From the IMG/VR virus record IMGVR_UViG_3300031623_000051, positions 1 to 22,856 of that record: 22,856 nucleotides of DNA. One strand, given 5' to 3'. The stretch comes from a virus. Both the position numbers and the translations under genes were made by a program. The notes beneath the pieces are model-generated. The model did no database searches. It saw nothing but the letters and a program-made list of their open reading frames with translations, and was not told where the DNA came from. Below are positions 9,718 through 21,833 of this stretch, piece by piece (positions within the stretch are counted from its first letter, which is position 1; each line of letters opens with the position of its first letter).

Positions 9718-10101
9718 CTAAGGTGCTACCACTACCTCAACCAATACTCCAATTGATTCCAGCCTTTCACGAGCCTTCGTTGCCTCCTTCTCGTCCAGCA
9801 CTTGAGTAGCCAACGCGGGCGGCAATAGGTCCGTGCGCCCTCTCGCGCCCGCCGCTTGGCGCAATGCCTCAACCTGGATATCTTTGACCAGTTTATCTAT
9901 CTCGCCTTGGATGTAAGCAAAAGTGGCGGCGTTGGTGACATCGGCTTCGGTCGCTGTTGCCTCGTTGGAGTCGGCCCCGGCAACGTACAGCTTGATTGCG
10001 TCGATTTTGTCGTCGTCAATAGACAGCGTGAATGTGCTGGTAATCGTCTGAGCCGCGAGGGCGGATGTAAACAGAATAGTGAGCAGCGTGAGTTTCTTCA
10101 T
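9718..10101 (-). CDS. Small protein with a signal peptide, unknown function
   Basis: 127 residues, not recognised. The first 17 or so residues, MKKLTLLTILFTSALAA, are a textbook Sec signal peptide with an ALA-A cleavage site. The mature part begins QTITSTFTLSIDDDKIDAIK and ends in an acidic and helical segment, then VLVEVVVAP. A good AAGGAA site precedes the ATG. It follows a second secreted-type protein and is followed by the head-closure gene, so it lies in the neck operon. Phage virion proteins rarely carry cleavable signals, so it may act in the host envelope. A membrane-anchored N-terminus rather than cleavage is an alternative. Confidence 0.75.
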   Translation of the reverse strand: MKKLTLLTILFTSALAAQTITSTFTLSIDDDKIDAIKLYVAGADSNEATATEADVTNAATFAYIQGEIDKLVKDIQVEALRQAAGARGRTDLLPPALATQVLDEKEATKARERLESIGVLVEVVVAP

Positions 10102-10111
10102 AGTAGATTCC

Positions 10112-10846
10112 TTAGATCAGACTCGCCCAAGCGCCGTTTTCGTAGCCCTCGAATTTATTCAGCGTCGTGTTGTAAATCAACATTCCATTTTCCGCTGTCA
10201 GCGCATCGCGTTGAGTAGTGGTCATTCTAGGGATGAGTAGTGCCCCGGTGGTAGACGTCAGATCCAGGATGGCGGATGCGTCGGGAGCCGCAGTACCTAT
10301 GCCTACGCTTCCGGTTGCTTTGATAAAAAAACTGCTTGTTCCGGCTTGACTTAGGAAATTGTAGCCATTGTAGGTTGCCTGCGTACCTTGGAAATGGAGT
10401 ACCCCGTCCGCGCTATTTCTTCCAATCTTATAATAGTTTGTTGTATCGTAGCCCACCCTGAGTTGATCAGCCGAAGTAGTACTAACAACCTGAAGAGCTG
10501 CGCCTGGAGTCGCCGTCCCGATGCCTACGGGGCCGCCGGTAAACAACGCCGAATAGGTGGGGTCAGAGAAAGTCGTTGTGCTTGTAAAGGTGTTGACTTG
10601 ACTTCCACCATACGCTACCCACGCTCCACTCTGCCGCGTGCAAATGACCTTCTTTGAGCCGCCGCCCGTTGTGCAAGATCCGTCAGCGCTGTCCTGGACC
10701 AAGTAAGGTGTACCATCACCATTCGGCGGGGATGCTGGCAAACCGGCGACAGTCGTGATCGTATAGACTGCCTGACGTGACAGGTTGATTTGGGCAGTCA
10801 ACGATGCGGACAAAATAAGAGCAACAATAATAAGTCTGCCAGCCAT
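10112..10846 (-). CDS. Exported fibre-like / adhesin-like protein with GIGT motifs
   Basis: 244 residues from the ATG at 10846, which has AGGTGA 6 bases before it; a GTG at 10855 is possible but overlaps the upstream gene. Residues 1-18 (MAGRLIIVALILSASLTA, then Q) form a signal peptide. Next come a YLVQDSADGSCTTGGGSK and VICTRQSGAWVAYGG domain, then two copies of a fibre-like motif (PVGIGTATPGAALQV and SVGIGTAAPDASAIL), and a C-terminal LLIPRMTTTQRDAL, GMLIYNTTLNKFEGYENGAW. Such GIGT..P and MTTTQRDAL/NTTLNKFEGY sequences occur in phage fibres and bacterial surface proteins. Why a signal is present is unclear. It could be a head fibre, a host-surface decoy or an adhesin. Confidence 0.8.
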   Translation of the reverse strand: MAGRLIIVALILSASLTAQINLSRQAVYTITTVAGLPASPPNGDGTPYLVQDSADGSCTTGGGSKKVICTRQSGAWVAYGGSQVNTFTSTTTFSDPTYSALFTGGPVGIGTATPGAALQVVSTTSADQLRVGYDTTNYYKIGRNSADGVLHFQGTQATYNGYNFLSQAGTSSFFIKATGSVGIGTAAPDASAILDLTSTTGALLIPRMTTTQRDALTAENGMLIYNTTLNKFEGYENGAWASLI

Positions 10847-10847
10847 T

Positions 10848-11291
10848 TTATTCACCTACCGACCACGCGCCCGCCATCACTCGGTTAGGGTCACGCACAC
10901 AGTCGAAATATAAACTCTCCAATAGCGTCGACGTTGGGGAAGACGAGAATGCGCCGTTGGCCTTGTCCCCCACGACGGTCCAGCGAATCGAACCCGCTCC
11001 GGTTAACGCCTTCTGCTGACTGGGCGTGTACGTCTGGTTGAAGAAATCCGCCGTAGTCAATTCAAACTGTGCCGCGATATAAGCGCCAACCTCCGCCAAC
11101 GTCAGCAGATTATACCCCGTTGCGATGTCGGTCCCGGAGCAACCCGTGCGGAACAGGTTGACATAGCGCAACTGGATGTAATCCGTTGCCCGCACCAGCG
11201 CCGCCGTTGCGTCTGCGTCACTTGCAGCGACTGGGGCGCTGTTGCCGCGAGCGGTAGCAAAGGTGCGAAAGTCTGCAAGCGTGCCTATCAT
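10848..11291 (-). CDS. Head-tail adaptor (gp6-like, DnaT-like family)
   Basis: 147 residues starting MIGTLADFRTFATARGNSAP. Pattern: a D-A-D-A-T-A-A-L-V-R-A-T-D-Y-I helix (residues about 26-40), an L..L..A...G.Y..A..F segment, and a C-terminal region with R/K-x-V-V-G-D. These features recur in the adaptor proteins that dock under the portal and that databases sometimes label putative DnaT-like. The gene follows the capsid genes as expected. GAGG lies 9 bases before the ATG, a weak site. No replication role is expected here despite the family name. Confidence 0.78.
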   Translation of the reverse strand: MIGTLADFRTFATARGNSAPVAASDADATAALVRATDYIQLRYVNLFRTGCSGTDIATGYNLLTLAEVGAYIAAQFELTTADFFNQTYTPSQQKALTGAGSIRWTVVGDKANGAFSSSPTSTLLESLYFDCVRDPNRVMAGAWSVGE

Positions 11292-14090: not shown

Positions 14091-15402
14091 CGTCTTCCTC
14101 TTCTTTTTCCACATCGAGGCCCTGCGCCTCTAATGGCTTAAATCCTGCCTCTTCACGGATTTCGTCTTCCGTGAATATCGGCTGTCCATCCACCCCGTCG
14201 CGGTTGATTTCGCCCATTTTTTTGGCTCGATTCATCCTCTTGTCTGGAGCCATATCCAACAGCGAATCCCATCCCACTGTATAATCCCTTTCGGGGAGAA
14301 TTGCCGCGCTCTCCAAACGTCTCAACACGTCGTGCAGAATCGGATGAATGACTCTTTCGCGTCGCGCCATACACACACGATTGAAATCCTCTTGGTCTTG
14401 GGTAGATGCGCGCTCACCCGTCTCGTTGCCGACTAGAATGCGCGCAGGAATGGCGACCGACGCCGCAAATGATTGCAATGCAGTGTTGAAAAACTCTTTT
14501 GGCTGAGGCAGACTGATATTAGTAGCGTGTGCCTTCATCCCCGCCAGCATCAACGACTTGTTGAACCCGAGCTGAAACCCTTCGATCTCACTATCCAGGG
14601 CTTCTTTGACTTTATCGACTGCGACTCCCATTGCTGCGGCCATGTCTTCCAATCGCGCTTCGGGATCGACTTCGATCACCGGCAGGCCCTTCGCGGTTTT
14701 CCAGAATCCCTCGCCGCCCGCACCCTTGATCTTCTCCATATCGAGCAAATCATTGAATCCAGGCTCAAGATCTGATCGTGGGTGGACAGTTCTGTCGCGA
14801 CTCCAGATGATCACGCGGTCAGGGTGGACGTCATAAGACCGGCGCGGCGCGTTATTGTTATCCTTTCCATTATTCAACACGCTCTCACGCATTTCGTACA
14901 TGAGCGGCAGACCGTAGCTCGGGCTAGTTTCTTCTGTGTTCCAGTTCTTGACGACGAGTTGCGCAGCCCACACCGGCTCAGCCTTGACCAGGCCCCTGAT
15001 ACCACCGGGAACCGTGTCGATTGGCTCAGCGAATCGCTTGCTATCGGCGAACCGAAGGATCAAGCCAGCATAGCCGCCGATATATGCGCGGCGATCAGCC
15101 TCAATTGCCGATTGCCAGAAGCTAATATCCGCCAAGTGCTGCCGAATATCCGATTCCAGCGGACTTTCCGTGGGTTCAGTTTTTTCCCAGATAGCGGGAA
15201 GGGTCTGCCATACGCGCAGTGATGTCTTTTCCACCGCAGCGCACGCTAGGCCGTTCCTATGGGCGGCACGGAATAATAGATCAAAGGTGACATCACCCGG
15301 CCACCCATAATCCACCTCGAAATCATGCCGCTGATTGGCGAACGCCAGTGGGAATATAGTCGCGAGGTTGCGGGTCAGGGCGTTAGTAATACGGTCGGTC
15401 AT
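14080..15402 (-). CDS. Portal protein (DUF1073-type)
   Basis: 440 residues, just downstream of the large terminase with an ATGA overlap. Portal rings form the DNA entry vertex and bind the terminase. Matching features: VTFDLLFRAAHRNGLACAAV and VWQTLPAIWE near the N-terminus, YIGGYAGLILRFAD, VKAEPVWAAQL, VHPDRVIIWSRDR, then FQLGFNKSLMLAGM and FAASVAIPARILVGNETGER. This last piece resembles the I-P-x-x-x-L-x-G motif at the end of the wing/clip region. A highly charged acidic C-terminus (VEKEEEDDAR) ends the protein. Databases also label this family anti-CBASS Acb1-like, but here order and length point to a portal. Confidence 0.92.
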   Translation of the reverse strand: MTDRITNALTRNLATIFPLAFANQRHDFEVDYGWPGDVTFDLLFRAAHRNGLACAAVEKTSLRVWQTLPAIWEKTEPTESPLESDIRQHLADISFWQSAIEADRRAYIGGYAGLILRFADSKRFAEPIDTVPGGIRGLVKAEPVWAAQLVVKNWNTEETSPSYGLPLMYEMRESVLNNGKDNNNAPRRSYDVHPDRVIIWSRDRTVHPRSDLEPGFNDLLDMEKIKGAGGEGFWKTAKGLPVIEVDPEARLEDMAAAMGVAVDKVKEALDSEIEGFQLGFNKSLMLAGMKAHATNISLPQPKEFFNTALQSFAASVAIPARILVGNETGERASTQDQEDFNRVCMARRERVIHPILHDVLRRLESAAILPERDYTVGWDSLLDMAPDKRMNRAKKMGEINRDGVDGQPIFTEDEIREEAGFKPLEAQGLDVEKEEEDDAR

Positions 15403-16739
15403 CTGGCTCCGTACCTTGCGAGTGTACCACTAGAAAGAAATGCGCCAAAACGCTTGGTTTCTTCGAGCATCAGATCCGATGCCGCCCAGACCATTGCGTC
15501 AGCACGATCAGGTGAACGGTCGCCCATATAGCCGGACGCCGAGAAGTTAACCAACTGATCTTCAAGTTCTGGCCATCGCCCGAGATGGCGCATCTTAGGA
15601 TGATCGCCGTCATATAGTACCGATATCGGCTCAGCTCTTACGTGTTTACCACGCGATGCGGTCACCATCGTCACCGGCACACGCCGATCAATGGATTTAA
15701 TCGTGGCTTCGACCATCGCACCGCCATAGTTCCGCTCAGCGATAATCCTATCAGCTCCCCAACGCTTAAATGCGGCAACTACCTTGCTCGCCCACTCTTC
15801 CGGCCCAGCACGTAGCGAACAGTCTTCCAGCACGATGCCGATGCCGTCGCGAGTCCTGCCTACAACAACGATGCCGATTTCGTCAGACCGTTCTTCCTCT
15901 TTCCCGCTTGCGCCACTCGGATCAACGCCAACAACGATGCGCCCGATGTTGTACTTGTCGCAGATCGCCGCGCACGTATCCGCAGTCAGCATTCCTTCAA
16001 AGTCGATGCGCCCCGCCTCCAGTTTGTCGTACGTCCATAGCGAGCCATCAACCTCATCGACATAGACGCCTTCGTAGAACCGGCGGCGCTGCTTCTCTGG
16101 TAGGTTCTTCAGCGACTGTATGAACTCGGGCGACAAGTGCCCGGAGTTGTCTGCCGGGTTGAGGAATGCTCGCTTGTAGTTCTCGGGGTCATTCAGCGGA
16201 GCGCGCGATATCGGGTCAACGTGCTTGCCGAATAGCTGGTTGCTCCAGTGCATCGAGCCGCTTGGGTTGAGATCGTAGTAGGCCCGCTGTGTTAGGTCGG
16301 TGCGTTGCGCGAGACGTGTCAGTGCGAGCGTGACCGAGACGTACGGGATCTGGCTGCACTCATTAAAGTACACCGTCGCGAACTCCTGCCCTAGGATCTT
16401 CTCTGTGCGCTCTTTGTCGTCGAGGCCTCCGACCCATATTTGCGACTTGTTCGGCAACTGATAAAAACCGTCCTGCCGATGCTCGGTCAGCTTCACGCCC
16501 GGAGCTTCCATGCTCATCACCTTCGGCAACGTGTCGAGCGCAATCGACGAGCGTGCAGCGTTGGCGCGGAATCGGAGAATGGCGTGGCGGGACTCCTTGG
16601 CATACAGCGCACGAAGGATGATTGATCTAACGAGTTCTGTAGTTTTCCCAGAGCGTGCGCCGCCGACAAGCGCGGTGTGACGCTGGGGACCTTTCAGCAG
16701 CTTACGAGCACGCTGTTGGCCTGGGTTCTGAACGTACAT
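15399..16739 (-). CDS. terL: Terminase large subunit
   Basis: 446 residues: an ATP-driven packaging motor with an RNase H-like nuclease. Walker A GGARSGKT is at residues 26-33. Walker B is ATVYFNE at 121-127 with the catalytic Glu127. A coupling-type segment AYYDLNPSGS follows near 153-162. In the nuclease half, VVGVDPSG places Asp273, RIIAERN places Glu335, and SPDRADAMVWA places Asp411 and Asp414, a set that fits the metal-binding acidic residues. All are intact, so the protein is likely active. It starts at a TGATG overlap with TerS. Confidence 0.96.
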   Translation of the reverse strand: MYVQNPGQQRARKLLKGPQRHTALVGGARSGKTTELVRSIILRALYAKESRHAILRFRANAARSSIALDTLPKVMSMEAPGVKLTEHRQDGFYQLPNKSQIWVGGLDDKERTEKILGQEFATVYFNECSQIPYVSVTLALTRLAQRTDLTQRAYYDLNPSGSMHWSNQLFGKHVDPISRAPLNDPENYKRAFLNPADNSGHLSPEFIQSLKNLPEKQRRRFYEGVYVDEVDGSLWTYDKLEAGRIDFEGMLTADTCAAICDKYNIGRIVVGVDPSGASGKEEERSDEIGIVVVGRTRDGIGIVLEDCSLRAGPEEWASKVVAAFKRWGADRIIAERNYGGAMVEATIKSIDRRVPVTMVTASRGKHVRAEPISVLYDGDHPKMRHLGRWPELEDQLVNFSASGYMGDRSPDRADAMVWAASDLMLEETKRFGAFLSSGTLARYGAR

Positions 16740-17101
16740 CAGAGCTTGTTGTCGTCTGCTCCGAAATGCAGATGAATTTCGCTTTCTCCAAGGTCTAGCT
16801 CAACAGCGATCTTGCCGTCCATTCGGTCCCAGACTTCCTTGAGCGCTGTCGAGTTGCCCTGTAGTGCCAGCTTGACGGTGGCGCGAGCGACGAGTTCGGC
16901 GTAGGTGAACTTCTTCCCCTCGCTGGTCTCGGTTACCTCGTCCATCATTGCCCGCATGGCCGAGGTCAGGCATTGCCTGCTCTTTGGTCGTCCCAGAGGA
17001 TTGCCTGACTGGCCTGGCTGAAACAGATACGGCTTGCGGGCCTTCTCAAGCGCCACCATGCTGTTCGAGGACTTCTCAGTGTCGGACATTGTTGGTATCA
17101 T
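16739..17101 (-). CDS. terS: Terminase small subunit-like protein (DUF5681-type)
   Basis: 120 residues. The DUF5681 signature FQPGQSGNPLGRPKSRQ is at residues about 27-43, followed by a helical stretch (LTSAMRAMMDEVTETSEGKK) and FTYAELVARATVKLALQGNS, then TALKEVWDRMDGK. This architecture is frequent in small terminases lying next to TerL. The stop overlaps the TerL start. An ATG at 17089 (MSDTEKS) is an alternative start; neither has a strong ribosome site. The start at 17101 lies only 9 bases from the divergent ASCH gene start. Confidence 0.8.
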   Translation of the reverse strand: MIPTMSDTEKSSNSMVALEKARKPYLFQPGQSGNPLGRPKSRQCLTSAMRAMMDEVTETSEGKKFTYAELVARATVKLALQGNSTALKEVWDRMDGKIAVELDLGESEIHLHFGADDNKL

Positions 17102-17110
17102 CCCATATGG

Positions 17111-17440
17111 ATGCTTTTGTTTGTGAAATCAGAGTTCTTAAAGAAGATCATCGACGGCAGCAAGACCATCGAAATTCGCTGCGGGTCGAGATATCGCGGA
17201 ATTAGCGTCGGAGATCGGCTGTCCTTGAATGGATCAACAATACGCTACGCGAAGAACGTCAGACGCTTTGAGACACTGACCAAGATGATCGCGGGCATCG
17301 ACGTAAAGCTGATCGGCTTTAGCTCTAAGGCAGAGGCTCGTAGGGTTCTGCGAACGCTGTATCCCAAAACAGGTCCTCAGCTCTGGGTTGCGATTGGGTT
17401 GACTGAAGATTGCCCCAAAGCGCGTCGAGAACGGCTCTGA
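17111..17440 (+). CDS. ASCH-domain protein (PUA-like fold)
   Basis: 109 residues, the only convincing plus-strand gene. The ASCH pattern is clear: FLKKIIDGSKTIEIR with the GxKxxExR signature (G16, K18, E21, R23), VGDRLSLNG at residues 33-41, and then a short F-x-x-L-T-x-M helix and LWVAIGL. ASCH proteins bind nucleic acid, and some relatives are hydrolases of modified nucleosides. No Shine-Dalgarno site is visible. It is divergent from TerS with 9 bases between starts and convergent with the GNAT gene with 24 bases between stops, so it has no room for a separate promoter outside neighbouring coding sequence. It may be an acquired accessory gene. Family call good, function not known. Confidence 0.78.
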   Translation: MLLFVKSEFLKKIIDGSKTIEIRCGSRYRGISVGDRLSLNGSTIRYAKNVRRFETLTKMIAGIDVKLIGFSSKAEARRVLRTLYPKTGPQLWVAIGLTEDCPKARRERL

Positions 17441-17464
17441 TCGACACGGCGCACCTTTAACTCT

Positions 17465-17953
17465 TCAACCTTCATCAGTGATGTTCGGCGTGAGGGCGCT
17501 ACTAAGACGACCAGCCAGATTCTTGACGCTCTTTTTGACCATGATCTGTGTCAAAAACTTGCGGCCCTGTTTTGGAGTGCCGACGCTTACGTAGTCGAGA
17601 TTCTCGAAAAGCGGGACGAACTGCCCTATTGAGCGCACCCAGGAGCATTGAGCGAAGTCGAAGATGCCACGAAACAAACCGCGCCCTCGATACTCGGGCA
17701 GTATCGCAACCGCCATCACACAGTTGTAGCCTGGGTTGATAAGAAGAACTGCCGCGTCCTTTCCTTCAACCTGAAAAAAGAGTAACCCGCCGTTTTCAGA
17801 CCATCGCTGAACCGATTGACGACCAATGAACGCTGGAAATCTGGCGCGATCATAGATTCGCTTAGCTCTTCGGTAGTCCGTCGACCGACCGAGGACGACC
17901 GTGAAGTCTAATCGAGGACGACTGACGAGTGTTTCTTTCCGCATTTCGGACAT
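17465..17953 (-). CDS. GNAT-family acyltransferase
   Basis: 162 residues from the ATG at 17953; ATG 17944 or TTG 17959 are alternatives. It overlaps the ParB-like gene by 46 bases. The GNAT motif A is clear at residues about 81-98: AVAILPEYRGRGLFRGIF, with RGRG at 89-92 as the acyl-CoA pyrophosphate loop. The preceding strands LLFFQVEGKDAAVLLIN and the ending FENLDYVSVGTPKQGRKF fit the fold. The substrate is unknown. Being directly after a ParB-like gene and close to an ASCH gene, a nucleic-acid substrate is possible, as with Mu Mom, a GNAT relative; Mom-specific residues were not recognised, so this remains a guess. A protein or drug acetyltransferase is the alternative. Confidence 0.78.
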   Translation of the reverse strand: MSEMRKETLVSRPRLDFTVVLGRSTDYRRAKRIYDRARFPAFIGRQSVQRWSENGGLLFFQVEGKDAAVLLINPGYNCVMAVAILPEYRGRGLFRGIFDFAQCSWVRSIGQFVPLFENLDYVSVGTPKQGRKFLTQIMVKKSVKNLAGRLSSALTPNITDEG

Positions 17954-18447
17954 ACGCAATTAGGGAGCGGTGAGCGGACCGAATCTCTGTCTAGACTGGG
18001 CGGCGGTTCGAGATCCTTAAGACGCTCGGCGAGAATAGCATCGAAGTTCAGCAGCTCGTCGAGCGTTTCTTTGTCCAGGTATATGCTCTTTAATACGTCG
18101 TCGTCCATCCCGGCAAGAAAGGGTGCCAGAAGCTCAGCCGTCGGATCGCCGTGCACCGTGTTCGTGTTCACCGCGATTCTCTGCGCCTGCTTGTCGTCGC
18201 ACTCGACGACAACCGCTGAGATCGTCTCGTGGTTCAGCTCTGATGCCGCCATCCATCGGTGATTGCCGGCCAAGATTTCGTACTTGTCTTCGGCGTTCTT
18301 TCGCACGATGATCGGACAAAGAAACCCGTCTCGCTCGATGCTGTTCTTTAAGGCGTCCATCTGCTTCGGGGTCAGAAATTGCGGGTTCCTTCTCAACCCT
18401 ACACAGTCTGCAACGGGGATCAATTCGAGTTTTGGCTGTTTCTTCAT
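17908..18447 (-). CDS. ParB-like (ParB/sulfiredoxin fold) protein with C-terminal zinc-ribbon motif
   Basis: 179 residues. The ParB N-terminal domain spans residues about 8-90: LELIPVADCV, NPQFLTPKQMDALKNSIER, GFLCPIIVRK, and the key motif AGNHRWMAASE with GNHRW at 61-65. VVECDDKQAQRIAVNTN follows. The C-terminus has a C-P-K-C knuckle (166-169) next to another Cys at 164 and His173, possibly binding a metal. Phage ParB-like proteins include CTPases, nucleases and partners of DNA-modifying enzymes. The start overlaps a 22-residue upstream ORF as ATGA. The lack of a ParA neighbour argues against plasmid-type partition. Confidence 0.85.
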   Translation of the reverse strand: MKKQPKLELIPVADCVGLRRNPQFLTPKQMDALKNSIERDGFLCPIIVRKNAEDKYEILAGNHRWMAASELNHETISAVVVECDDKQAQRIAVNTNTVHGDPTAELLAPFLAGMDDDVLKSIYLDKETLDELLNFDAILAERLKDLEPPPSLDRDSVRSPLPNCVCPKCGKKHSSVVLD

Positions 18448-18512
18448 CTGCTTTTCAGTCTCGGATCCGGTTTCCCGCCACGCACCCTACGCCTGCCGCG
18501 TTTCTGACTCAT
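18444..18512 (-). CDS. 22-residue Arg/Lys-rich small ORF coupled to the ParB-like gene
   Basis: The ORF starts MSQKRGRRRVRGG and ends RLKSR, with 10 basic residues of 22. It fills the gap exactly: its ATG is one base after the stop of the 139-residue gene, and its TGA overlaps the ParB-like ATG as ATGA. Such a fit is what a real coupled ORF would give. A GAGAAG lies 7 bases upstream of the ATG. It could be a nucleic-acid-binding micropeptide or merely a translational leader. Too short to assign to a family. Confidence 0.5.
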   Translation of the reverse strand: MSQKRGRRRVRGGKPDPRLKSR

Positions 18513-18513
18513 G

Positions 18514-19133: not shown

Positions 19134-21833
19134 TCACTGTATAGAGTCGGACGTCTTGAAAGTATACCCTAAGACCTTCGCGGCGGCTTCGAGTAGGTCT
19201 GAGTCGATGCCCGCTGGAGCCGAGACCTGACCCTCGGGACTCAGCCTAGCGCCGAACTGTTTGATGATTTCCATGGCTCGATGCTTGGAGATTCCGCCGA
19301 CCTCGACGAGCCATCTTGAGTCGGATTTGACGAACCGTAAACCGCCCTCGTATCGGTGAGCGTGGCGGGCGATGAAACGGCCAACAGATCGCCCATTGAT
19401 TGATCCACGGTTGTCGGCGATTTCAAGCATGGCGTCCTTGAGTGCGGACGTATCTTCGGAGCTGTAAAGCCCGCCGTCGTCGCTGGCTATCTTGATCGCT
19501 TCGCCGGTGGTTTTCGCGGACTTGCCGAAGACGGAGTGCCAGGCCTTGAGCAGGGCGGCGAGTTGGCTGGAGACAGGATCGGACTCCTCGATAGATTCGC
19601 GGCTATCGCAGGGGTCTGCCATGCCGAGCCAGACGAGCGGCTCGCGGATGAATCGAGACCATTGCTCGAAGCGGCCATAAACCGGAATCTGGACGCTATC
19701 GCTGGAAGCCATATAGGACAGGATCACGGTTAGCCCGGCTGCGACGAGTTCGGCTCGTTTACGGGGCACGACCTCGCGCAGGTTGATGTCGTAGGCTCGT
19801 TGGTCGGGATGCTCGACACCGGCGTCGATGTAGGACTGGATGGCTCGGGCGCTGAGGTCGCCGCGCATGACGATGTTATTGCCGGTGGCGATCCAGGTCG
19901 TCTTGGTCGATACCGCTACGGTGCGCGACATGCCGAGTATGCGCTCCTGCCAGATCGGCTCAGATAGGATGGTGCAGAGCGTGTCCGAGGACAAAGGCTT
20001 CTCGACGTTGTCGATACAGATCACGGCTGAGCCTTGCATGAGCAGGGCCAGGTATCGCTTCTTCTCTTCATCCTCGTTCGTCGCCTGGCTGATCATGACC
20101 GTCTCGCGCCCGGTTGCCAGGTAGCCGACGACATCGGCCAGCAGCGTCTTGCCTGAGCCCGCTTTTGGTGCGGAGAATGCGAACAAAGGAGCGGCTCGAA
20201 CGGCGTGCCTGATCAACGGGGTAAGCATGGCAGCAAGAACGGCAGAGCGGCTGGCCTCGTCACGGAAGGGGAAGCCGATCAATATCTTCAGCAGCTTGTC
20301 GAGCGCCGCCTTGCCTTCTTCTTTGGTGGGCTTGGCCGGGATCGGCGGGAATGTCACGTCTCCGGTGTCGAAGAACAGCCCGGAGTCGGCATCGTATCCG
20401 GGTGTCTGGATCAGCGAGCCATCGGGCCTGAACACGGGCGTCTCGGTGACTCCGGCCAGGTAGGGTGTCGTGCGCCATCCGCCAACGCCTGCTTGGTGAA
20501 GACTACGGGCGACATCCTCGGGCGCGTTGATCGGTCGCAGGTCGCCACCGGCTGTCGGCTTGACCCACATCGCTGCTCTGGTGAGAGCGGTGCGCATGGA
20601 TGATGTCGTCATCGGGTAGATATCGACCGACCCGGCCTCGATTTTGGCTGAGCCGAGCATCTTGGCGGTTTCGAGTCGTCCTAGTGTGACGAGCTGCGCA
20701 CCGCGAACATATACGCCGCCCGTCGCCTGCCGTCCAGTCCAGGACGATAGTGCTCGCTCTGCATCATCGACGTTATGGGCCAGGGCACCGCCCGAGAATT
20801 GGATCAGCGGGAGGTGAGTGGGTTCGCCGTCGTCGTCAGTGGGCGGCGGCTGTGGTTGCCCACCAGGTGGCGGCGGTGGTTGCTGCGCACGGCTACTGCC
20901 GAATCCGTCTGCGGCCAGCTTGCGGGTTGAGTCGGTGAAGTTTGCCGCCGAGAGTCCGCCACATTCGAGCGCAGTATATATGGCGTGCGGGGTATAGGAC
21001 TCGCTTAGGTCGAAGGGTGAAGCGTTACTTGAGAACACGTACAAGAAGCGCTTATCATCGTGCCAGATAGCGGACGCGCCTTTTTTCTTGCCGGGCCTTC
21101 GGAGGTGGTACTCGTCGCCGTGCTTGCGCTCGATGGCCCAGCCTTGGGACTGCATCAGGTCGAGAACTGGACCCCGGGCGTTGTAGTCGTCGCCTGGGCG
21201 TCCGGTTCCGGTCGGGCCGCTATTTGGGTGGCGTGGCGTCTCGGCTTGCGGCGGTGTCCAGGTATTGAACGAGCGGCAGCAGTCGAATAGAGCTTGGCGT
21301 TCTTCGGGCGTGATCTCCGGCGTCGCGGTGATGCGCCCGTGGGCCATTGTGTAGGGATTGCCGGAGACGTGGCAGGCGGCTGGACATCCAGGCGCGAGAA
21401 CATAGCCGCCGATTCCGCGAGTTTCGATGAGGACCTGGTAATGGTCGTTTGCGTCGGCTTGTCCGGCTAGCTTCTGGTTGCCTTCGATGGCTGAGCAGCG
21501 GTAGAAGATATGCCGCCCGCCAGATGGGGTGGCGACCTGCGGCAGACGGTCGAGCAGTCCGGGGCAGGCTTCCTCGATCAGCTCGGCGATCTCCGACCAC
21601 GGTGCGGCGCGTCCTTCGATGTCGATGACTTCGAGATTGCCGGAAGCCGGGCCGCAGATAATGCCGACGCCGAGACCGTCGAGAAAGTGCTGCTCGACTT
21701 CCTCTGTCGTCATGCGCTCGGTCTGGAGCGGTTTCCAGGTGTCGATAGCTGGGCCTTTACTGCCGTCCGCCTTGATGGGAAGAGCCGAGATTCCGGCACG
21801 GATGAGGGCGAAGGCGACTTGTTTGGCGGTCAT
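19134..21833 (-). CDS. Primase-helicase: prim-pol N-terminus fused to P-loop helicase-like ATPase
   Basis: 899 residues. The bifunctional primase/polymerase domain covers about 5-190: GISALPIKADGSKGP, VIDIEG with Asp71 and Glu73 as likely metal ligands, SGGRHIFYRC at 104-113, and ETRGIGGYVLAPG with Arg139. A Pro-rich disordered linker at about 316-335 joins this to the ATPase half. There Walker A is APKAGSGKTLL around 555-565 (Lys562) and Walker B is AVICIDNVEKPL near 605. WIATGNNIV and LSARAIQSYIDA resemble sensor and arginine-finger segments. It primes and unwinds phage DNA. The fusion is common in phage and plasmid replication proteins. The ATG overlaps the upstream stop as ATGA. Confidence 0.9.
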   Translation of the reverse strand: MTAKQVAFALIRAGISALPIKADGSKGPAIDTWKPLQTERMTTEEVEQHFLDGLGVGIICGPASGNLEVIDIEGRAAPWSEIAELIEEACPGLLDRLPQVATPSGGRHIFYRCSAIEGNQKLAGQADANDHYQVLIETRGIGGYVLAPGCPAACHVSGNPYTMAHGRITATPEITPEERQALFDCCRSFNTWTPPQAETPRHPNSGPTGTGRPGDDYNARGPVLDLMQSQGWAIERKHGDEYHLRRPGKKKGASAIWHDDKRFLYVFSSNASPFDLSESYTPHAIYTALECGGLSAANFTDSTRKLAADGFGSSRAQQPPPPPGGQPQPPPTDDDGEPTHLPLIQFSGGALAHNVDDAERALSSWTGRQATGGVYVRGAQLVTLGRLETAKMLGSAKIEAGSVDIYPMTTSSMRTALTRAAMWVKPTAGGDLRPINAPEDVARSLHQAGVGGWRTTPYLAGVTETPVFRPDGSLIQTPGYDADSGLFFDTGDVTFPPIPAKPTKEEGKAALDKLLKILIGFPFRDEASRSAVLAAMLTPLIRHAVRAAPLFAFSAPKAGSGKTLLADVVGYLATGRETVMISQATNEDEEKKRYLALLMQGSAVICIDNVEKPLSSDTLCTILSEPIWQERILGMSRTVAVSTKTTWIATGNNIVMRGDLSARAIQSYIDAGVEHPDQRAYDINLREVVPRKRAELVAAGLTVILSYMASSDSVQIPVYGRFEQWSRFIREPLVWLGMADPCDSRESIEESDPVSSQLAALLKAWHSVFGKSAKTTGEAIKIASDDGGLYSSEDTSALKDAMLEIADNRGSINGRSVGRFIARHAHRYEGGLRFVKSDSRWLVEVGGISKHRAMEIIKQFGARLSPEGQVSAPAGIDSDLLEAAAKVLGYTFKTSDSIQ

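Follow-up and report, generated by a model that had tools for sequence, protein, structure and literature searches.

Do three genes that lie together beside the terminase genes of a phage fragment, encoding a ParB-like protein, a putative GNAT acyltransferase and a putative ASCH-domain protein, form a cassette that modifies the phage's DNA, as a first-pass annotation had proposed? We addressed this question in the window, by which we mean the whole stretch of DNA that was analysed, a virus record fragment of 22,856 bases (22.9 kb) that is probably incomplete. Its late region lies on the minus strand and encodes a minor tail/tape measure protein, a tail terminator, a Mu F-like protein, a DUF6260/linocin-like protein that is the probable capsid protein, a portal protein, the terminase large subunit (TerL) and a DUF5681 protein, which by its position would be the small terminase (TerS-like). 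The ParB, GNAT and ASCH genes adjoin the DUF5681 and TerL genes and are upstream of both (Table 1). All three open reading frames (ORFs) were found where the first-pass annotation had placed them, with ASCH on the opposite strand, and each had the top codon score among the six frames; the score of the GNAT ORF was weak (0.11 vs. 0.10 in one antisense frame). A Pfam scan of the 20 window proteins likewise agreed with the earlier remark that the window holds no methyltransferase, an absence that carries little weight because the window is a 22.9 kb fragment. No Rfam match was found anywhere in the window. The head-tail region encodes two small proteins (9718-10101 and 10112-10855, minus strand) whose N-termini resemble signal peptides (...TSALAAQ and ...SASLTAQ), neither with a Pfam match. 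Upstream of the cassette, an 899-aa primase-polymerase (Prim-Pol) is encoded at 19134-21833 on the minus strand, and matches to the C-terminal two thirds of this protein were confined to phage families of unknown function.

Table 1. Coordinates of the cassette genes, their motifs and the adjoining terminase genes in the window.
Feature	Position	Strand	Evidence
ParB/sulfiredoxin-fold protein, 179 aa	17908..18447	-	Pfam ParB_N, PHROG ParB families, phage ParB alignment
ParB C-terminal knuckle CVCPKCGKKH, C164-H173	about 17929..17958	-	sequence; start of GNAT ORF
Putative orphan GNAT-fold acyltransferase, 164 aa from TTG	17465..17959	-	weak Pfam, hhalign
Putative acyl-CoA-binding motif A, YRGRGLF	17672..17692	-	HMM and hhalign alignments centre here
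Putative ASCH-domain protein, 109 aa	17111..17440	+	Pfam ASCH; PDB 1xne
ASCH motif GSKTIEIR (GxKxxExR)	17156..17179	+	sequence
DUF5681 protein, small-terminase position	16739..17101	-	Pfam DUF5681 3.3e-15
Terminase large subunit (TerL)	15399..16739	-	Pfam Terminase_6N/6C, phrog_979

The ParB domain is a nucleotide-binding, DNA-associated fold. On sequence grounds, the predicted membership of the window protein in this family is firm: it matched Pfam ParB_N with E=2.2e-16, many PHROG ParB families matched as well, and it shows the features of the ParB_N/ParB-CTPase fold, including the pocket arginine R64 (GNHRW) that is invariant in phage ParB alignments. Its C-terminal end, CVCPKCGKKHSSVVLD, carries the CPKC knuckle that had been noticed at the outset. 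A knuckle of the form CP[KEH]CG[KH][KE][FH] is common to a large phage ParB subfamily that includes the window protein, whose identity to most of the surveyed ParBs is 21-38%; its best match, the L116 ParB, has no knuckle. In phages, fusions of ParB to methyltransferases (MTases) are common, and GTP binding is reported for a bacterial fusion of ParB to an acetyltransferase (PMC12704722). ParBc genes with no assigned role are also reported near the cytosine carboxymethyltransferase CmoX (PMC12783734).

There is modest evidence that the ORF at 17465-17959 encodes a GNAT, as had been called from the letters alone. Two Pfam families matched the protein below their cut-offs (Acetyltransf_7, E=0.13; Acetyltransf_1, E=0.16), and both weak matches include, or extend up to, the stretch around LPEYRGRGLF. 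The top match among solved structures was 1wk4, a probable acetyltransferase (E=0.031). A profile assembled from GNATs of other loci gave 18.3 bits by HMM and 88.9% by hhalign over motif A (LPEYRGRGLF), a slightly circular test because the window GNAT had itself been the query that retrieved three of its nine members (L303, L312 and L317). By hhalign, unrelated profiles, four in number (Mom, ParB, TET-associated glycosyltransferase [TAGT] and C5-MTase), gave 0.1-0.7%. The segment PEYRGRGLF conforms to the motif A pattern R/Q-x-x-G-x-G/A, though F occupies the final G/A position. We found no homologue of the protein in viral contigs, INPHARED phages, plasmids or GTDB genomes, in scans of viral contigs and genomes that detect close relatives only, nor in 50 related viral records, and screening viral contigs for a motif-A pattern returned no relative either. 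When the search was relaxed to E<=10, a single ordinary-looking GNAT (L206) was retrieved, and the matches in 392 genomes from a single bacterial phylum were all weak and mostly over motif A.

These weak family scores and the lack of homologues are also what would be expected if the ORF were a decaying or misassigned, inactive gene. The ORF has no clear ribosome-binding site, its codon score is only marginally the best, and AlphaFold2 modelled the protein with low confidence (pLDDT 35 and 34, with one and five sequences), all of which would fit such a gene. The frame is nevertheless intact over 164 codons and several methods place motif A at one site, and we consider decay or misassignment highly improbable.

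The first-pass annotation had further pointed to Mom, the GNAT relative of phage Mu that modifies adenine in DNA, as possible kin. Mom (PF25680; PDB 8bv8, 'Methylcarbamoylase mom') and the window protein would share the GNAT superfamily, and both are strongly basic (pI 10.0-10.6 for Mom and about 10.3 for the window GNAT). This suggested kinship did not survive comparison: the window protein had no match to PF25680 at E<=1, and a Mom HMM built in this work scored -3.2 bits by HMMER and 0.2% by hhalign, ruling out that the protein is a Mom. The window GNAT instead appears to carry the canonical acyl-CoA motif A. In the same Pfam, HMM and hhalign comparisons, none of the known nucleic-acid acyltransferases proved homologous to it.

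What the window GNAT does share with Mom is its place. The start of its ORF falls within the codons of the ParB knuckle, and the two genes overlap by 52 nt when the GNAT is read from TTG (17959), by 46 nt from the first ATG (17953), which is the figure first reported, or by 37 nt from the second ATG (17944). Overlapping ORFs were also seen at most ParB-Mom loci, often by ~46 nt as in the window, although true starts may shorten these overlaps. The com-mom pair of Mu resembles the window in layout only: in each, an upstream cysteine-knuckle protein is encoded in a frame that overlaps the acyltransferase gene, but Com, a small RNA-binding zinc finger (PMC6483171), is not a ParB, and the ParB-GNAT junction showed no unusual RNA structure (z=0.64), so that a com-like translation-control structure was dropped from consideration. 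Programmed frameshifting to give a ParB-GNAT fusion is disfavoured, since no canonical slippery heptamer was seen and the frame offset, worked out by hand, is -1 vs. +1 in most ParB-Mom overlaps.

We then surveyed the genes that follow related ParBs. In viral contigs, these ParBs recur in the order ParB - X - small terminase (TerS) - TerL, and the window fits this layout, with a CPxCG knuckle, an overlapping putative enzyme gene and then the terminase genes, TerS being assigned by position. Counting ParBs that have a C-terminal CPxCG knuckle and no fused enzyme, the next gene encodes a nucleic-acid-modifying enzyme at 81 of 92 loci, or in 24 of 33 clusters formed at 60% ParB identity. X was Mom at 64 of these loci, a count inflated by ranking the survey on similarity to L164, a Mom-linked ParB; the others were C5-MTases (7), N4/N6-MTases (6) and B12-radical-SAM proteins (4). 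Pfam supported Mom in three representatives (5.5e-43, 4.5e-51 and 1e-48) and TAGT in two X proteins (3.5e-9 and 1.2e-35), and gave Tet_JBP at 6.5e-7, below its cut-off. ParBs without the knuckle were followed by TAGT, TET/JBP-like proteins, an ABC ATPase plus GNAT, a second ParB or terminase genes.

Knuckle ParB-Mom-TerS-TerL, with overlapping ParB and Mom ORFs, is a cassette very common in phages and recurs among loci L207-L286 (e.g., L217:3947-5200, L229 and L246); like the window GNAT gene, the Mom genes of these examples overlap an upstream CPxCG-knuckle ParB gene and, in most viral contigs, adjoin a terminase gene. We found no description of the ParB-Mom-terminase cassette in a literature search whose coverage did not include Iyer et al. 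2013. The ParB-N4/N6-MTase pairs and fusions (phrog_498; L002, L003 and L299) similarly place the enzyme after a ParB, here ending in CPKCGKKH (L002 and L003) or CPKCGKEH (L299) and followed in L002 by a terminase gene; in contrast to the window, the enzyme is a methyltransferase and not a GNAT. A B12-binding radical SAM-like protein occupies the slot at L245:4459-5907 (TIGR03960-like, E=2.7e-7), L247, L266, L300 and, after ParBs without the knuckle, L192/L193, and may be a radical SAM modifier of DNA that has so far gone unrecognised.

As a reverse control, 294 genomes of one bacterial phylum were searched with a Mom profile and no use of ParB. Of seven strong Mom loci, four had a ParB directly upstream, which in three cases carries a CPHCG knuckle, and the remaining three adjoin N4/N6 methyltransferases. 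One of the latter, L301, shares a genomic cluster with L299 of Planctomycetes bacterium GWF2_42_9, in which two MTases and Mom come after a knuckle ParB.

Proximity to the terminase genes could also mean that the ParB-GNAT pair is a packaging accessory that acts on the terminase or on DNA ends, with the ParB possibly an NTP-regulated nuclease and no base being modified. The cassette directly adjoins the genes for both terminase subunits, some knuckle ParBs (L126, L258, L291, L292 and L298) are immediately followed by terminase genes, without an intervening enzyme, and ParB-like domains can be nucleases (PMC5512222). Against this, the commonest ParB partner is a base-modifying enzyme. Moreover, in the cultured Arthrobacter phage Sicarius2 the gene for gp71, a ParB (...CPNCGHTF...), overlaps that for gp72, a Mom, by 1 nt and the pair adjoins the endolysin gene, with no terminase gene within the 5.7 kb read, indicating that proximity to a terminase is not essential. 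We regard a packaging role as improbable.

A more serious rival is that the GNAT is an accessory (moron) acetyltransferase whose target is a small molecule or a protein of host or phage, for instance in host takeover or toxin neutralisation, and that came to lie between ParB and terminase by chance. Its matches are to general acetyltransferases, and its GC3 is 0.57 vs. 0.68-0.70 in the minus-strand neighbours. Phage GNATs that act on proteins do exist, including Rac (PMC7824862) and RimI-like domains in polyvalent proteins (PMC5512222). Adjacency to a terminase can also arise otherwise, as GNATs of another kind lie just after TerL (L090:2240-2698 and L108:8938-9384) in phages with related TerL. 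The pairing of a ParB with a lone non-Mom GNAT was seen in no other locus that we examined, making the window a single case; 11 neighbourhoods of TerL relatives (64% identity and below) contained no ParB-GNAT pair, one of them, L062, having ParB and TAGT. On the other hand, the window GNAT occupies the exact slot that DNA-modifying enzymes hold at the majority of knuckle-ParB loci, and its overlap with ParB parallels that of Mom. We judge the moron explanation tentative, somewhat less probable than not, and keep it as a serious rival because other-family GNATs adjoin terminases and the exact pair has been seen once.

The explanation that we favour, to which we would give an even chance, is that ParB and GNAT form a variant of the widespread phage ParB(knuckle)-X-TerS-TerL modification cassette in which a non-Mom GNAT serves as the writer. 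Weighing against it are the single occurrence of the pair, the lack of homology between the GNAT and known nucleic-acid acyltransferases, the low identity of the window ParB to most surveyed ParBs, its knuckle-free best match and the knuckle ParBs that have no enzyme before the terminase genes. The first proposal of a DNA-modification cassette thus holds in part: the position supports it, in that knuckle ParBs lie directly upstream of Mom or other modifiers beside the terminase, but the kinship of GNAT and Mom does not. The same division applies to neighbour conservation, which had also been raised, since the ParB-enzyme-terminase layout recurs in many phages whereas the exact GNAT has no detectable close homologue. 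What is new here is the non-Mom GNAT in the writer slot. Judging from its position, the substrate of this enzyme would be DNA, and it is reasonable, if unproven, to treat the window GNAT as a candidate new DNA acylation enzyme.

If the window pair is such a cassette, ParB and GNAT would be co-translated from their overlapping frames, and the ParB domain might bring the writer to DNA or license it there. Using acyl-CoA as donor, the GNAT would then acylate an amino group of a base before the DNA is packaged, and the resulting mark may shield virion DNA against restriction. The ASCH protein could read or tend the mark, or be unrelated. A bolder version, in which the GNAT is the first of a new, Mom-independent family of phage DNA acyltransferases that sits in the writer slot and marks a base before packaging, with ASCH as reader or eraser, we think less likely than not. 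In support of the favoured reading, acylation of DNA bases has been predicted for GNATs coupled to an ABC ATPase (PMC7824862). Loci L157, L158 and L183 encode, after a ParB, an ABC-type ATPase together with a canonical GNAT, the two being fused in L157/L158, and then terminase genes. The window likewise has a seemingly canonical GNAT after ParB and before terminase genes, but its cassette has no ABC ATPase and the GNATs are alike only in motif A (11-15% identity overall).

More broadly, the locus places an uncharacterised putative acyltransferase where phages keep DNA-base modifiers, and the survey shows that ParBs of the subfamily ending in a cysteine knuckle strongly mark the genomic sites of such enzymes. 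It also offers a search rule for undiscovered modification enzymes, namely a gene that overlaps a knuckle-ParB gene upstream of the terminase. Whether the ParB targets, licenses or regulates the modifying enzyme is a question that can be approached now, because cultured Arthrobacter phages carry ParB-Mom pairs.

ASCH domains have a PUA-like fold. The call of an ASCH protein in the window falls just below threshold but is supported by its motif: the match to Pfam ASCH (PF04266; E=7.6e-4) reached 20.6 bits against a cut-off of 21.2, 0.6 bit short, and GSKTIEIR corresponds to GxKxxExR. The top PDB match was the hypothetical protein 1xne (E=0.0029). The gene is convergent with GNAT, with 24 bp between the gene ends, and being on the opposite strand it lies outside the ParB-GNAT transcript. 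Among the loci that we scanned for GxKxxExR ORFs near ParB, Mom or TerL, three (L214, L215 and L226) have such an ORF, in each case directly after Mom, the gene ends overlapping by 4 nt. L215 is a near-identical copy of L214, and L226 has 77% DNA identity to L214; Pfam ASCH matched the L226 protein at E=0.0084 and left that of L214 unsupported. ASCH as a partner of Mom-type cassettes, in two related lineages, is therefore suggestive but not established.

We also compared the window ASCH with the YqfB-type ASCH amidohydrolase, an N4-acylcytosine deacylase whose catalytic octapeptide and residue spacing have been described (PMC6972931). Both proteins have an octapeptide with Lys and Arg, but the window reads K-x-x-E-x-R-C where the catalytic pattern is K-x-x-T-x-R-D. 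With the catalytic Thr replaced by Glu and the Asp after Arg by Cys, YqfB-type deacylation of N4-acylcytosine is not predicted and assignment as a YqfB-like deacylase is unsupported. The window ASCH could instead read a mark, or could be unrelated to the ParB-GNAT pair. A promoter-like site lies just upstream of the ASCH gene (17073-17101, plus strand; 9 of 12 matches), but chance alone would give roughly one site of this kind in the region scanned. DUF5681 and ASCH are read divergently from start codons only 9 bp apart (17101-17111), so that the ribosome-binding region of each gene must fall within the other.
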